Assembly (NCBI GenBank): GCA_025055115.1
Contig: JANWYJ010000009.1
Span: 1-38,356 of the forward strand
Reading direction: 5' to 3'
From: Gemmata sp.
GTDB taxonomy: Bacteria > Planctomycetota > Planctomycetia > Gemmatales > Gemmataceae
DNA length: 38,356 nt
Of this stretch, positions 2,710 through 35,571 are shown in pieces (the stretch's first letter is position 1; every line of letters begins with the position of its first letter). The notes under the pieces are model-generated. The model was given only the letters and a program-made list of their open reading frames with translations, searched no databases and was not told the DNA's origin. Position numbers and translations under genes: made by a program.

Positions 2710-2970
2710 GATCGCTCCAGGAATGAAGGAAGGACTCCGAGAACACCGCCGGTCACGACCACCAGCGGCCAGCGACAACACCGGGGTCACGTCCGGCGAC
2801 ACAGCCGCCGGCCCTGACCCACCGCAACACCGCCCCCACAGGACAGCGACAACACATCGGCCACTTCGGGCCCCAGGCAGGATGGGACGCGACACAACGT
2901 CAGCGTCCTGCACAACAACCTAGCCCACCGACGATGAAAACCCGATGACCGAACGATGAGTTCCTGAGGA

Positions 2971-3075
2971 GTTGGTTCCCGGTGCCTTTCAGAATTCGGG
3001 ATCCGCCACGACACTGCGAGCCCAGCTGAGGACAACACGATAGTTGGTTCCTGGTGCCGTGGAGAATTCGGGATC
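2971..3075. repeat. 33-bp direct repeat pair, 72-bp period
   Basis: Copies at 2971-3003 and 3043-3075 match at 29 of 33 positions; both start GTTGGTTCC and end AGAATTCGGGATC. The 39 bp between them are unique. The pair sits in the 553-bp gap between divergent genes (DUF1559, minus, and the epimerase, plus). No gene was recognised in 2710-2970. Confidence 0.85.
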
Positions 3076-10100: not shown

Positions 10101-10124
10101 CCCCCCGCTCCGGCCCGCGGGGGG
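10101..10124 (+). terminator. GC-only hairpin ending exb operon
   Basis: CCCCCCGC (10101-10108) pairs perfectly with GCGGGGGG (10117-10124) across an 8-nt loop, 15 bp after the stop codon. There is no T tract. The right arm runs into the first copy of the repeat pair at 10119. Confidence 0.5.
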
Positions 10125-10231
10125 AATCCTTCGTGGGCCACACTCGTGGCGGGAACGGCTCGACTTCAGGGCGGCTCTCGTCCGAGAGACCTAGGGGGGA
10201 ATCCTTCGTGGGCTACGCTCGCGGTGGGAAC
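10119..10231. repeat. 38-bp direct repeat pair, 75-bp period
   Basis: Copies at 10119-10156 and 10194-10231 agree at 34 of 38 positions and start GGGGGGAATCCTTCGTGGGC. A perfect small hairpin GCCAC-ACTC-GTGGC occurs inside the first copy. The 37-bp spacer is unique. It lies immediately downstream of the toroid gene. Confidence 0.88.
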
Positions 10232-10292
10232 CGTTGGCGGTTCGCGCTGCGAGCGTTTTGCGTTGTCTGCCGCCACCATCCCGTTCTGCCCC

Positions 10293-10400
10293 CGTCGCAG
10301 TTGTTCATCCCGCGGCGCGTGTCAGCAACCCAGAACCGACAAGAACGTTTCTGTATCCCTTGACCGTCGCAGTTATTTCTGCCGCGGCGCGTGCCAGCAA
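10293..10400. repeat. 36-bp direct repeat pair, 72-bp period
   Basis: Copies at 10293-10328 and 10365-10400 match at 31 of 36 positions (start CGTCGCAGTT, end CAGCAA). The 36-bp spacer shows no similarity to the repeat on either strand. Confidence 0.85.
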
Positions 10401-12291: not shown

Positions 12292-12398
12292 TCCGGTGGT
12301 GGGAGTGGAAGAATCCATCGGGGCGTTGTGATCATCTGGATAAGAGAGGACAAACGGTGGTCTGGTGCTGGGAGTGGGGCAATCCATCGGGGCGTTGT
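12292..12398. repeat. 38-bp direct repeat pair, 69-bp period
   Basis: Copies at 12292-12329 and 12361-12398 match at 33 of 38 positions and share AATCCATCGGGGCGTTGT. The 31-bp spacer is unique. It lies in the gap between the NikL-like gene and rnpB. Confidence 0.85.
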
Positions 12399-13077: not shown

Positions 13078-13195
13078 AGCGCTGCCAGCTTATCTTCCAT
13101 TCCCCGCTTCCAGGGGCATCAGGCCGTAAACCGAGTGCCGGTAGTGGCCCAGCGCTGCCAGCTTATCTTCCATTCCCCGCTTCCAGGGGCATCAG
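13078..13195. repeat. Perfect 45-bp repeat pair, 73-bp period
   Basis: Copies at 13078-13122 and 13151-13195 are identical over 45 bp (start AGCGCTGCCAGCTTATCTTC, end GGGGCATCAG) and are separated by 28 unique bp. They directly follow rnpB. Complete identity suggests that this is one of the youngest duplications in the window. Confidence 0.93.
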
Positions 13196-19954: not shown

Positions 19955-20061
19955 GTGCGCGGTTCAGCCTCGCCGCAATGGTCTGCGCTTTTGTGGACAC
20001 TGATTTCGACCAACAGGTCGTCTTCGTGCGTGCGGTGTAGCCTCGCCGCGATAGTCTGCGC
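19955..20061. repeat. 34-bp direct repeat pair, 73-bp period
   Basis: Copies at 19955-19988 and 20028-20061 agree at 28 of 34 positions, with AGCCTCGCCGC in both. The 39-bp spacer is unique. The second copy runs into an inverted repeat CGCCGG/CCGGCG at 20059-20078, which could terminate the FKBP gene arriving from the right. No gene is supported in 19864-20113. Confidence 0.8.
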
Positions 20062-27069: not shown

Positions 27070-28566
27070 ATGTTCGGTCTGCCTCCCGAACTCAGCAGTG
27101 CCGGGTTCGGCTTCGATACCTCGATGTTCATGTTGACCGGCTATCTGTTCGCGGGGCTGGTCGGGATTATCGTGGGGGCCATAGCGCTGGGGTTACTCAC
27201 GTTGCCGGCGTTTTTCGTCATTTTGTGGGGGGCCGATCGTGTCGCGGGGCTTCTGGCGTCGGCGACCGGGTGGTTCCCGATCAAGTTGGTGCTCATCATG
27301 TTCCGCGGCTTGCGACGCAACATGCTGCGGACATCGCTAACGTACCTGGCGATCTTTGTGCTGACGCTCGTGTTGTGCCTTATCTACGCCGTGTTGTGGA
27401 TGATAGGCAAAGCCACCACCGAGAAAGAAGCCAACTTCAAGGCGATTGTGACGCACAAAACCACCATTCCCAGCCAAATGCCGCCGGGTTACTACGAGGA
27501 GTTCAAGCGGATTTGCATTGAAGAAGTGCCGAAAGTCTACGCCCAGAACCACCCTGGCGAGCCACCACTGGTCATTCGCGAATCCGACATCATGAGTTGG
27601 TCGTTTGTGCTGGGCACAACCGACAAAGTCAACCAACGCAAGGAGAATATGGTGTTTCTCTTTGCGCTGGAACCCGACAAAGTGCTGACGATGATGGACG
27701 GTCTCGATGACCTGACCGGGGAAGAACACGAGATGCTCAATAAGGCCTGCGACATCATGAAGCAGAACGAACGGGCCATTGTCATGAGCAAAAGCCGGCT
27801 GAAATCGTTGAACATGGAAGTGGGGCAGAAAATCAAGCTGCATGGGGTGAACTATCCGGGGCTGACGTGGGAGTTGGAAATCATCGGCACCTTGCCGGAG
27901 GGCAAGTACGAAGGGGTTTCCTTCATGAACAAATCGTACTTGCTCCGCAGCCTGGAAGCCTATCCGCGTGACCGCGAGGCCAACCCCCAAGGCCTGACAC
28001 ACCCGATGATGGAGAAGTGCATCAACCTCATCTGGGTGCGGCTGCCCAATAAAGAAGCCTTCGAGATTCTCAGCGGCATGGTCAACGACCGCGCTCGCTT
28101 CAACAAAGTCCCGATCAAGTTGGAAACCGCCTCCAGCGGCATCGGGACATGGTTGGGGGGGTTCAAAGATATCTTCTGGGGGATCAAATACATCCTGGTG
28201 CCAGCGATGATCGGCATTATGAGCCTGGTTGTGGCCAATGCCCTGTCGATCTCCGTGCGTGAGCGGCGGACCGAAATGGCCGTGCTGAAAGTTCTCGGTT
28301 TTCAGCCGCGGCACGTCATGTTCCTGGTGTTGGGCGAAGCTTTGCTCGTCGGCTTGATGGGCGGGGCGATGAGTACGTTTCTGGCCTGGCGGCTACTGGG
28401 CCATTTCAAGTTCCAGATTATGTTCTTCGGGGCGTTTTTTGTGCCGGCGATCGCTATGCTCTACGGCACGCTGCTGGGTATGGCGGTGGCCCTGGCCGGC
28501 AGTATCGTGCCGGCGTGGACCGCCAAGGATGTGAAGGTGGCGGAGGTGTTCGCCCGCGTCGCCTGA
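27070..28566 (+). CDS. FtsX/MacB-type ABC permease (first)
   Basis: Predicted 498-residue permease of the MacB/FtsX class. Unusually, an N-terminal pair of hydrophobic segments (about 18-60) precedes the standard first helix (about 90-112, LTYLAIFVLTLVLCLIYAV), giving extra membrane helices. The large extracytoplasmic domain is at about 115-370. Three C-terminal helices include VVANALSISVRERRTEMAVLKVLGF, the typical FtsX coupling segment near 392-416, and TLLGMAVALAGSIVPAW near 465-485. GAGGA lies about 7 nt upstream of the start. It probably pairs with the 790-residue permease downstream as a heterodimer. A CRISPR-like repeat cluster separates the two genes. Confidence 0.9.
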   Translation: MFGLPPELSSAGFGFDTSMFMLTGYLFAGLVGIIVGAIALGLLTLPAFFVILWGADRVAGLLASATGWFPIKLVLIMFRGLRRNMLRTSLTYLAIFVLTLVLCLIYAVLWMIGKATTEKEANFKAIVTHKTTIPSQMPPGYYEEFKRICIEEVPKVYAQNHPGEPPLVIRESDIMSWSFVLGTTDKVNQRKENMVFLFALEPDKVLTMMDGLDDLTGEEHEMLNKACDIMKQNERAIVMSKSRLKSLNMEVGQKIKLHGVNYPGLTWELEIIGTLPEGKYEGVSFMNKSYLLRSLEAYPRDREANPQGLTHPMMEKCINLIWVRLPNKEAFEILSGMVNDRARFNKVPIKLETASSGIGTWLGGFKDIFWGIKYILVPAMIGIMSLVVANALSISVRERRTEMAVLKVLGFQPRHVMFLVLGEALLVGLMGGAMSTFLAWRLLGHFKFQIMFFGAFFVPAIAMLYGTLLGMAVALAGSIVPAWTAKDVKVAEVFARVA

Positions 28567-28624: not shown

Positions 28625-28811
28625 GCCGCAACGGCCATCCCACCGATGAGATCGTTGCGACGAAAGATGTTGATAAGGCGAGAATCGCGTTTGCGATGCC
28701 GCAACGGCCATCCCGCCGATGAGATCGTTGCGACTTCCTGCAGTTTTGTCAAAAACATCACCGCCGAGGACTAAGCCGCAACGGCCATCCCACCGATGAG
28801 ATCGTTGCGGC
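28625..28811. CRISPR. CRISPR-like mini-array, three 37-bp repeats
   Basis: Repeats at 28625-28661, 28698-28734 and 28775-28811 start GCCGCAACGGCCATCCC and end GATCGTTGCGAC. Copy 2 differs at one base; copy 3 differs only near its right end (GCGGC). Spacers are 36 bp (28662-28697) and 40 bp (28735-28774) and unrelated to each other. The repeat has terminal dyad symmetry (CGCAACG with CGTTGCG) and a small inner dyad (CATC with GATG), and GTTGCGAC resembles the ends of many real CRISPR repeats. Against a functional array: only three units, no cas genes within the window, no AT-rich leader, and many other repeats here with the same geometry but different sequences. It ends 16 bp before the next start codon. 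Confidence 0.45.
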
Positions 28812-28827: not shown

Positions 28828-31200
28828 ATGAACGCGACCAACCTGAGCCTGCAGCGTGTGGCTCCGCCCCGAGGGCCGGGACGGTTCGTCAAAACCGTCG
28901 GCCAATTCGTCCGCACCCTGTTCCGCCTCATCGGCACACTTTTTGTCATTGGTTTTTCCCTTTTGCCACTGTCGGCCTTGTTGGTGGCTTTGCCGGCGGT
29001 ATCGCCCCATGAAGCGGTTTTGACTGATTCGGTCCGTCCGTTGCCCTCGTGGTGGGCACGTACCCGGCGGCGGCTTTTAGCGGCTATGGCCGGGGTGGTG
29101 GTTCTTGTCGCCCTCATCGCGTTTGCGATGGAGGTGGTGGCGCGGGCGCCGTTGCCCAGCGGCGGGCAGATGGCCACATTGGCCAAAAAGGTTCTCAGCT
29201 ACTCGGTGGCGGATTTTCCGGTCGTCTCGTGGTTCATCTTCCCCGAAGACCCCCGACCGGCCGACATCGAACCCCTCAAGAGTTTCTTAGACAAGCGGGA
29301 TAACGCACGCAAAGAACTCATCAACCCCGACCTTTCACCCGAACAGCGCCGTGCGTACCAAAACGAACTGGCCGAAGCCAACGCCGCGATTGCCAATTGG
29401 GCCGAAGAACCGGCCAACCGCTGGATCGTGCCTGCGGAATTGTTCGCCCAACGGCAGGCCGCCAGCCCCACTGGCAGCGACATGCGCCGGACCCTGGTCG
29501 ACGAGGCCATTGCGGAGCGCGTGGCCGACGTGACCAAACGCTGGCTGCCGGCCGACGAGCTTCTCAAAAGCCGCGATTCGTTCCGCAAAGCCGCCAGTCG
29601 TCCCAACCTGAATCCCCGCGATCAAAGGGAAGCCGAAAAGCGCCTGGCCGAGGTCGAACGCGAAATCGCCGAACGCACCCCCCACTCGCCCAAGCTCCGC
29701 TTGCTTCAAGACCCCGACCTGCAACCCCTTCTTGGCGTGCCGCTGTGGACCCTGTTGCCTCCGGTGTTGGTCGAACAGTGGCCCTTCGTTTTCCTCATCG
29801 TTTATGGGACCGATCTCATCTTGCTGCTGCTGATCGGCAAAGTTCCCCTCAGTTATAACTGGCGGTACTTGTGGGTCCGCAAGCGCGATACCGCGCTGAC
29901 GGCTGTGGCTTTTACTGTGGTCGTGGCCCTGGTGGTGGTGCTTCTGGCCTTCGTCAATGGCATGTACAAGCTGAACGAAACGACGGGAGTTCCGGGCAAT
30001 GTCCTCGTGTTGTCGGAAGGTTCCACCGACGAACTTTTCAGCAACCTGGCCCGCGGTGGCGATATCGAAAATGCCATCAAAGCCACAGTCATGGCCGATG
30101 CCATGGGGCGGCCCATCGGCCCCAATGGCCAAGGCGTCAGCGTCGCCCGTGGCACCTTCGGCCCCGATGGCCGCTTCCAACGCTTCCCCGTCGGGACACC
30201 CAAAGATACCCCCGGTGAATACCTCAAGAGCTTCGAATCGTACGTGGTTCTCAATCAAGCCATCCCCACCAAACCCGGCGAACCGCCCAAACGTCGCTTC
30301 CTCCAACTGCGCGCCTTCGACGATATCCGCATCGGAGCCATCGTCCACGATATTACGCTCGAAGAAGGCGGCCGATGGTTCAATACCAATGCCGTCGAAC
30401 CAGGCGAGAAAGCCCCGGATGGCCTGGAATACCTGCAATGCTGCCTGGGTGAAGGGGTCGCTGTCACCTTGGGAGAAGACCAGGGCAAAGCCCGCCTGAC
30501 GGTCGGGGATACTTTCGAATTGGGCGACCGTTGGTGGAAAGTGGTGGGCCTGATGAAAACCCGCGGCACCACCTACGGCTCCGAAATCTGGACCGGAATT
30601 CAAAACCCCGTGGTGCGGGCCAGCGGCAAGGGGGATAAGTTCAGTACCCTCGTTCTGCGGATGGAAGACGATTCCGACGAATCCGCCCGCGCTATGGCGT
30701 ACTTCCTCAACGAAATTTACACCCAGGCCAAACTCAAAGCCTTCGCAGAATCGGACTACTACAAAGAATTGACCAAAACCAATGAACAATTCCTCACCGC
30801 GATTGTGCTGATGGCGGTGATTATGGCCGTCGGCGGCATTTTCGGCGTGATGAACACGATGTTCGCCTCGATCGCCGCCCGGATTCGCGAAGTGGGCGTG
30901 TTACGAATTCTCGGCTTCAAACGTTGGCAAATTCTCATTTCCTTCATGCTGGAATCACTCACGATTGCCTTCGTCGGCGGTTTTCTCGGCTGCCTGATCG
31001 GCTATTGCGCCAACGGCTTTGAAGCGGCCAGTACCCTCTCGGGGGGTCAGGGCGGCGGCAAAAGCGTAACGCTGACGATGCAAGTTGATACCCCCATCAT
31101 TGCGACCGGGTTGCTATTCACCCTAGTGATGGGCCGCTTGGGCGGATTGGTGCCGGCGCTATCGGCCATGCGCATGGAGATTCTCGAATCTCTCCGCTGA
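28828..31200 (+). CDS. FtsX/MacB-type ABC permease (second, extended)
   Basis: Predicted 790-residue permease, roughly twice the usual size. Two N-terminal helices (about 36-58 and 85-105) are followed by a charged, helical region (about 135-295) rich in Arg/Glu/Ala (DKRDNARKEL, AYQNELAEANAAI), which may be a coiled coil. A helix at about 315-335 comes next, then the canonical permease: a helix near 355-375, an extracytoplasmic domain (about 380-640) and three C-terminal helices. The FtsX segment is MFASIAARIREVGVLRILGFKRW (near 675-697). GGGAG lies about 12 nt before the ATG. It is the partner of the preceding permease in an exporter served by the shared ATPase and HlyD adaptor. Confidence 0.9.
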   Translation: MNATNLSLQRVAPPRGPGRFVKTVGQFVRTLFRLIGTLFVIGFSLLPLSALLVALPAVSPHEAVLTDSVRPLPSWWARTRRRLLAAMAGVVVLVALIAFAMEVVARAPLPSGGQMATLAKKVLSYSVADFPVVSWFIFPEDPRPADIEPLKSFLDKRDNARKELINPDLSPEQRRAYQNELAEANAAIANWAEEPANRWIVPAELFAQRQAASPTGSDMRRTLVDEAIAERVADVTKRWLPADELLKSRDSFRKAASRPNLNPRDQREAEKRLAEVEREIAERTPHSPKLRLLQDPDLQPLLGVPLWTLLPPVLVEQWPFVFLIVYGTDLILLLLIGKVPLSYNWRYLWVRKRDTALTAVAFTVVVALVVVLLAFVNGMYKLNETTGVPGNVLVLSEGSTDELFSNLARGGDIENAIKATVMADAMGRPIGPNGQGVSVARGTFGPDGRFQRFPVGTPKDTPGEYLKSFESYVVLNQAIPTKPGEPPKRRFLQLRAFDDIRIGAIVHDITLEEGGRWFNTNAVEPGEKAPDGLEYLQCCLGEGVAVTLGEDQGKARLTVGDTFELGDRWWKVVGLMKTRGTTYGSEIWTGIQNPVVRASGKGDKFSTLVLRMEDDSDESARAMAYFLNEIYTQAKLKAFAESDYYKELTKTNEQFLTAIVLMAVIMAVGGIFGVMNTMFASIAARIREVGVLRILGFKRWQILISFMLESLTIAFVGGFLGCLIGYCANGFEAASTLSGGQGGGKSVTLTMQVDTPIIATGLLFTLVMGRLGGLVPALSAMRMEILESLR

Positions 31201-32602: not shown

Positions 32603-32894
32603 CTTGTGGTTGCCGCCGTCGCCGTGGTGCAGCACAGCCGCGACGGTAGTCGGGGACACAAGCAGCCGCCGGGGCACGAACCGCGCAGTTGCCGTCGTGG
32701 TGCAGTGGTCGCTTCCACGCATTCCATCGTGCGGTTGCCGTCGTGGTACAACCGTTGCTCCCACGAACTCCATTGTACAACCGTTGCTCCCACGAACTCC
32801 ATTGGGGTAAGCGATGCAGTTCTTGGCCCCGAATTCCTTCACCGGGCGAATGAGTATGTTGCTCCCACGAACTCCATTGGGGTAAGCGATGCAG
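32603..32894. repeat. Composite repeat array downstream of EF-hand gene
   Basis: A perfect 37-bp pair (start GTTGCTCCCACGAACTCCAT) lies at 32783-32819 and 32858-32894 (75-bp period, 38-bp spacer). A perfect 29-bp tandem lies at 32746-32774 and 32775-32803 (start GTACAACCGTTGCTCCC). A degenerate 46-bp unit (GTTGCCGTCGTGGT at 32688 and 32734) extends the array leftwards. No gene is supported in 32574-32975. Confidence 0.88.
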
Positions 32895-33461: not shown

Positions 33462-33633
33462 CCCCCCGCCAAGCCGACTGTTCCTCTCGGCCGACCAGAT
33501 AATTTGACGTCGCCATTGTGGCTGAAGCCAACTAACCCCCCGCCAAGCCGACTGTTCCCCTCGGCCGACCAGATAGCACATAACATGTCAAGCGTGATTT
33601 CAGCACCCCCTCCGCCGATCCGACTGTTCCCCG
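33462..33633. repeat. Three-copy CRISPR-like array, 74/72-bp periods
   Basis: Copies at 33462-33501 and 33536-33575 are identical at 39 of 40 positions (CCCCCCGCCAAGCCGACTGT start, CGACCAGATA end). A third, partial copy from 33608 keeps 23 of the first 26 positions. Spacers are 34 and about 32 bp and unrelated. The array is downstream of the sigma-like gene read from the right. Confidence 0.9.
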
Positions 33634-33641
33634 GGGATTGC

Positions 33642-33806
33642 GACGAACTTCGCAGCGCAACCCGTCAGGCCGCGGCCCAGGCCCTGCTCGACCCTTGCGC
33701 GCAAGCAATGAGAGTGGTGACGAACTTCTTGGACTTAGAGTGGTGACGAACTTCTTGGACTTAGAGTGGTGACGAACTTCGCAGCGCGGCCGGTGAGGCC
33801 GCGGCG
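33642..33806. repeat. 26-bp triple tandem inside a 36-bp pair
   Basis: GACGAACTTCGCAGCGC opens 36-bp copies at 33642-33677 and 33771-33806 (31 of 36 match). Between them, AGAGTGGTGACGAACTTC heads a 26-bp unit at 33711, 33737 and 33763, the third truncated where it merges with the outer repeat. This suggests successive duplications of the same stretch. Confidence 0.88.
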
Positions 33807-35470: not shown

Positions 35471-35571
35471 TGCGGGGCTGGCTCGGGCGGGTGTTGGGCC
35501 GCCGATCCGTAATCACTGCCGATCGGCCTGTTCGGTATTTCATTGCGGGGTTGGCTCGGGCGGGCGTTGGG
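35471..35571. repeat. 28-bp pair copied from gene end, 73-bp period
   Basis: TGCGGGG-TGGCTCGGGCGGG occurs at 35471-35498 and 35544-35571. The right copy is the last coding stretch of the PVC-type gene (encoding PPEPTP); the left lies downstream of it. Similarity continues weakly upstream of the copies (about 40 bp in all). Confidence 0.83.

Follow-up and report, generated by a model that had tools for sequence, protein, structure and literature searches.

Off-target spacer integration is known from E. coli, and to our knowledge most observations of it so far come from over-expression or in vitro work. Nivala, Shipman and Church are said to have described non-canonical integration in 2018 (Nat Microbiol), together with a small number of putative natural examples from Yersinia pestis and Sulfolobus islandicus; they reportedly call such loci “neo-CRISPR”. 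Over-expressed Cas1-Cas2 is stated to integrate spacers outside arrays, and IHF-like motifs to favour such integration (PMC9456107, PMC11788318), the Cas1-Cas2 of Streptococcus thermophilus acts in vitro on off-target sites with a guanine preference (PMC6895254), and S. thermophilus CRISPR3 shows ectopic spacer acquisition inside arrays (PMC7999890). The accessible part of a further paper (PMC12216489) contains nothing on off-target integration. Among the matches listed in a literature search, which consisted of titles and the starts of abstracts and covered few subscription journals, none dealt with genome-wide natural off-target integration or with loci of this kind in Gemmata. Here we describe a three-copy array in a Gemmata genome which, with a probability that we put at roughly 85%, is the product of off-target spacer integration by CRISPR Cas1-Cas2, the same process having acted genome-wide.

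The window, that is, the whole stretch of 38,356 nucleotides analysed, is one entire contig (C15) of an assembly that comprises 4.93 Mb in 100 contigs. The array consists of three 37-bp copies of a repeat at 28625-28661, 28698-28734 and 28775-28811, with start-to-start distances of 73 and then 77, and of two inserts, or spacers, of 36 bp (28662-28697) and 40 bp (28735-28774); none of these features is assigned a strand. Copies 1 and 2 agree at 36 of 37 positions, as do copies 1 and 3, and copies 2 and 3 agree at 35 of 37; position 36 is A in copies 1 and 2 and G in copy 3, and position 18 is G in copy 2 alone. The original prediction of three near-identical 37-bp repeats around unrelated spacers of 36 and 40 bp is borne out by the coordinates and the comparison of copies, and it was right to call this geometry CRISPR-like. 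The terminal dyad symmetry that it described is real, and in copy 3 it extends without a mismatch over 8 bp (GCCGCAAC/GTTGCGGC). That copy had also been called degenerate at one end: the end does differ, but merely by the A-to-G change at position 36. Not one match to the array pattern arose in 100 dinucleotide shuffles of the window, which excludes a chance origin.

As had been proposed, the array lies inside an apparent operon, with permease genes on both sides, and stops 16 bp short of a start codon, the ATG at 28828. Upstream is a gene for an FtsX-type ABC permease (27070-28566, plus strand; Pfam PF02687) and downstream one for a MacB/FtsX-type ABC permease (28828-31200, plus strand; Pfam PF02687 and PF12704); with an ABC ATPase and an HlyD-type protein encoded further upstream, the cluster reads TetR - HlyD - ATPase - FtsX - MacB/FtsX. 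The nearest named relative at this locus is a metagenome-assembled genome labelled “uncultured Gemmata sp.”, with 95% protein identity. Between the two permease genes of the closest relative (L051) lies unrelated DNA free of the array repeats, and the array is therefore no conserved component of the operon. At this site in G017, the closest congener, the array repeat is absent and the intergenic DNA does not align.

The array had been assigned to a 73-bp family, which does exist: several further loci of the window have the same geometry and different sequences, namely pairs of 28-45 bp copies at offsets of 69-75, each locus with its own sequence and without an assigned strand. A second three-copy locus occupies 33462-33647, with copies at 33462, 33536 and 33608 (spacings of 74 and 72), the first two of which agree at 36 of 37 positions and the third at 25-26 of 37. 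Identical copies are found at 32783-32894 (37 bp each, at 32783 and 32858, around a 38-bp insert) and at 13078-13195 (45 bp, spacing 73), and 38-bp copies with a spacing of 75 at 10119-10231. The remaining pairs are eroded: 10292-10400 (37-bp copies, spacing 72), 2970-3075 (34 bp, 72), 12295-12398 (35 bp, 69), 35471-35571 (28 bp, 73) and the weak pair at 19959-20061 (30 bp, 73). The array is not the best-preserved member, as had been thought, since 5 of the 76 pairs counted below are identical over a span of 37 bp. Three-copy loci number two in the window, with perhaps a third on C7 (L014); independent hits on random sites would not be expected to produce them. The window also contains exact tandem repeats of the ordinary type, of 26 bp (33711-33788) and 35 bp (35-104).

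Genome-wide, we sampled 37 stretches totalling 690,962 bases, or 14% of the genome, a non-random set taken mostly from contigs C1-C17 with the addition of C86 and C95. Intergenic direct-repeat pairs at offsets of 69-79 numbered 73; there were 11, 5 and 11 at offsets of 40-49, 50-59 and 60-68, and 4, 10 and 3 at 80-89, 90-99 and 100-109. A first-order Markov null of 210,840 bases gave no pair at 69-79. The set of pairs analysed further started from 79 at these offsets, or 78 without the canonical pair of the CRISPR array on C95, and 76 once a contig-end pair and a low-complexity coding pair had also been set aside. These 76 pairs lie at 73 loci, a density of 11 pairs per 100 kb, and the repeat differs from locus to locus; by extrapolation from the non-randomly sampled stretches, the whole genome would hold about 520 loci. 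Of the 78 pairs, 77 lie mainly in intergenic DNA, compared with 16.7% of random windows, the exception being the low-complexity coding repeat. Offsets of 71-76 account for 70 of the 82 pairs in the range 68-80. Under a model with a single duplication length, the 47 best-preserved pairs are best described by 37 bp (36 is worse by 11.7 and 38 by 22.6 log units), and all 76 pairs by 36 bp (37 is worse by 6.4). A duplication of 36-37 bp matches the canonical CRISPR repeat lengths of 37 and 36 bp, and, if it is 37 bp, the inserts of the 70 pairs at 71-76 measure 34-39 bp, which is also the range of the canonical spacers of this genome and of G017.

One explanation for such pairs is replication slippage, or tandem duplication of a unit of about 73 bp of which one half then diverged, so that all would be plain repeats; the window does, after all, contain tandem repeats of the ordinary kind as well (periods of 15-35 bp). 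However, the inserts show 27.0% and 23.7% identity (n = 76), that is, no resemblance, to the adjoining flank expected to recur in a tandem duplication of 73 bp, and the pairs are therefore not tandem duplications. The inserts also differ from the repeats in G+C content: over the 63 of 76 pairs with copies of at least 29 bp, it is 54.2% for inserts and 60.8% for both repeats and 60-bp flanks (paired t, P = 3.4e-5 and 6.9e-6, respectively), the intergenic mean being 58.4%, and the values become 53.8%, 60.7% and 60.7% when 65 rows, the canonical pair among them, are used. For comparison, canonical spacers have a G+C content of 54.9% (ten from G017) and 47.6% (four from the source genome). Finally, slippage predicts no fixed offset, and the peak is missing from the sampled relatives. 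The original prediction would have regarded the array as a plain repeat if the genome had neither cas genes nor another copy of the repeat; a further copy is indeed lacking, but cas1 and cas2 genes are present. Altogether, we consider plain repeats very unlikely.

The intergenic location and uniform size would equally suit a non-autonomous mobile element of small size or a set of related regulatory elements acting as DNA or RNA, but the chance of this is close to negligible: no repeat is common to the loci, a second place within the 691 kb was found for one of 79 inserts only, and a search of Rfam at the array gave no family at its threshold and a single match far below it. The first two of these observations also dispose of any family defined by a common repeat or insert sequence. 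The one insert with a second place lies on C3 (L010:17372-17407) and matches a stretch of C12 (L117:12011-12046) at 94% over 36 bases, the match stopping where the insert ends. This insert was present in none of the 18 congeners, and its counterpart on C12 has no flanking duplication (best agreement 16/37). The C12 stretch is about 40 bp away from another stray pair. When the 79 pairs were compared with 395 kb of G017 in search of empty sites, none that was clean emerged: 18 gave matches, and the three of these aligned over their full length are strongly diverged.

The sources of the array repeat and its spacers were sought more widely. With as many as 3 mismatches allowed, the genome contains the repeat only as the three copies of the array. 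It had been suggested that this might be an ectopic array of a CRISPR repeat used elsewhere in the genome; two CRISPR repeats were found there, and neither is that of the array. A functional CRISPR array has its repeat in common with a CRISPR-Cas system, and no such system was found for this repeat. A true orphan array, inherited or transferred, whose cas genes were lost or lie elsewhere, would still account for the terminal dyad, the GTTGCGAC end and the spacer lengths. Yet the repeat is absent at up to 3 mismatches from all 391 other genomes of the phylum sample and has no exact match among viral contigs, and the other 72 loci, each with a repeat of its own, would be left unexplained, which makes an orphan array extremely unlikely. 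An orphan array of a known repeat is rejected on the basis of the searches of the genome, the phylum sample and the viral contigs. The spacers had been proposed for comparison with viruses and plasmids, and for neither was a phage, plasmid or viral-contig source found. Spacer 1 occurs once in the whole genome at up to 3 mismatches and matched nothing among phages and plasmids; spacer 2 gave weak and partial matches, the best covering 27 bases at 92.6% (E 0.01). The cores of both spacers, and those of three other family inserts, had no exact match among viral contigs.

The array repeat, of which copy 1 is read as a duplicated target site, is thus best read as native DNA duplicated by CRISPR adaptation enzymes. 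Off-target integration of this kind would begin with Cas1-Cas2 joining a captured fragment of about 36 bp to both ends of a native intergenic segment of about 37 bp, one end on each strand, and gap filling would then turn the segment into two copies on either side of the captured fragment. A second event at the array site would yield three copies and two spacers, resembling a young CRISPR array, or neo-CRISPR. The same reaction at many intergenic sites (73 loci in 691 kb) would produce a family held together by a common mechanism and not by sequence. The enzyme would likely be the Cas2-Cas1 pair of C95, a pair with an array of its own in which 37-bp repeats are spaced at 73 bp, and the type I-G module may contribute. 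We infer these enzymatic steps and the choice of module, as well as a foreign origin for most inserts and the lack of function of most loci.

The candidate enzymes are encoded on contigs other than that of the array. The original prediction had noted the absence of cas genes nearby, and this agrees with the position of both genomic cas1 genes, the only cas genes compared in this respect, on other contigs. The genome carries two cas1 genes, and cas2 was found as well; judged from their sequences, they appear to be intact, and the adaptation modules lie on C86 and C95. The module on C86 is of type I-G and consists of a Cas4g/Cas1g fusion with Cas2. The nine frames tested around these genes (L006:3159-9483) include those for a HerA-like ATPase and a protein kinase but no recognised interference gene, and C86:1-20000 showed no array. 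An array on C20, with four 36-bp repeats and spacers of 38, 36 and 37 bp, presumably belongs to this module; the corresponding repeat of G017 differs by one change. On C95, a Cas2-like frame (TIGR01573, E 1e-5, a weak match at 25.7 bits against a cut-off of 24.5) accompanies a 364-aa Cas1, which is followed by an array of two 37-bp repeats at a spacing of 73; a further 37 bp separate the second repeat from the end of the contig. This Cas1 keeps the glutamate, histidine and aspartate aligned with those of Cas1g, which we take to be the catalytic residues. A search for Cas3-HD gave matches above the cut-off on C55 and C65. The C95 repeat is found in none of the 18 congeners, whose top matches to the C95 Cas1 reach no more than 33% identity. 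A Cas1 that matches the C95 protein with an E value of 1e-40 or lower is encoded in five other genomes of the phylum sample, and arrays with repeats of about 37 bp were present at three of these five loci (G136, G117 and G412), the fetched loci being short. The G412 locus (L189:221-3873) has two CRISPR-like stretches with variant repeats of about 37 bp, one of them more degenerate.

Sequence preferences at the insertion sites were analysed on the 66 edges of the 33 pairs with 35-39 bp copies, the junctions of canonical arrays being left out of the derivation. The junction CC|(G/C)T is enriched, with P values of 0.0014, 0.0085, 0.00098 and 0.0089 at positions -2, -1, +1 and +2 (uncorrected, 12 positions tested). 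The left junction of the C95 array, GCC|GTC, falls at the 99.9th percentile of window 6-mers for this edge motif, and that of the C20 array, GCC|CTC, at percentile 99.6 if its leader end is as assumed; the opposite ends of these canonical arrays do not fit (percentiles 32.8 and 78.0). At the three-copy array, the outer junction of copy 3, read on the minus strand, is CCC|GCC, consistent with the family motif. Guanine occurs at 31 of the 66 edges compared with 31% expected, and cytosine at 25 of 66, a weak preference. A search of the edges for a leader-like motif of 12 bases gave no support, as 122 of 300 shuffled motifs did equally well. Folding energy was the same for targets and flanks (n = 20). 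The 8-mer GCCGAATG stands directly after three stray pairs (L014:2903, L111:16185 and L115:8580) and has 8 intergenic occurrences in the 691 kb.

As the canonical repeat lengths are one base apart, the length of the duplication does not settle which enzyme acted. The stray integrations might be due mainly to the type I-G Cas4/Cas1-Cas2 and not to the C95 module: the spacers of I-G-type arrays span the same 34-39 bp as the inserts, a length of 36 does slightly better than 37 for the full set of pairs, the edge motif is matched by the left junction of the C20 array too, and G017, which has type I-G only, possesses one clean pair. However, the best-preserved pairs favour 37, and the relatives argue in the same direction. 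G017 is 88% identical at the array locus, has one cas1 match, a type I-G Cas4/Cas1 with 88% protein identity and a canonical array, yet outside that array its 394,984 bases contain one clean stray pair (38-bp copies around a 36-bp insert) and one weak one. Moreover, other relatives whose Cas1 frames are fusion-like by length lack a comparable peak. We regard a mainly type I-G origin as unlikely, although less so than the explanations dismissed above. The clean G017 pair (L079:2487-2598, on its contig C24) is a perfect 38-bp duplication about 9 kb from the Cas4/Cas1 fusion, and is perhaps a recent stray integration by the type I-G module.

In another 15 relatives, represented by 41-80 kb each and by 1.15 Mb altogether, 20 pairs were found at offsets of 69-79, of which 13 sit in G005 and G014 and look like coding repeats as far as their sequence can be read. 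Two pairs in G012 (L134:18437 and 15308), with offsets of 73 and 74 and lengths of 28 and 33 bp, could be stray integrations. The raw rate in these relatives is 1.7 pairs per 100 kb versus 10.7 in the source genome with the same filter, the latter value including the canonical and the coding pair (74 pairs) and the comparison having one positive genome. Off-target integration has its likely agent in the C95 pair, a link drawn from one genome.

From a broader perspective, it is quite probable that a CRISPR adaptation module has worked in this Gemmata lineage as a genome-wide mutator, leaving some 500 heritable intergenic spacer insertions, a few of which grew into multi-spacer neo-arrays. If so, CRISPR adaptation would contribute substantially to new intergenic sequence, and this genome would be a natural laboratory in which to follow how CRISPR arrays are born. 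The loci would form a fossil record of the reaction that shows which sites it prefers, how long the duplications and the inserts are, how ages are distributed and how a stray spacer grows into a small array, so that the origin of new CRISPR loci would become directly testable. Some “orphan CRISPR” calls could turn out to be scars, and the genomic cost of keeping an adaptation module would be laid open.

Compared with the described systems, the in vitro sites of the S. thermophilus enzyme (PMC6895254) are likely half-site events with a strong guanine preference, whereas the preference seen here is weak. Acquisition is likewise misplaced in S. thermophilus CRISPR3 (PMC7999890), but there it occurs inside an array of the canonical repeat, and here in unrelated chromosomal DNA. 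What is new in the proposed natural off-target integration is its density, and its genome-wide scale is more striking than the single array. Among the closest described systems are the loci of Nivala and colleagues, in which a spacer-sized fragment was reportedly also inserted outside an array with duplication of the chromosomal target; however, those arose with over-expressed Cas1-Cas2, whereas here 73 loci, stable and in part eroded, are found in the 14% of a single natural genome that was sampled.
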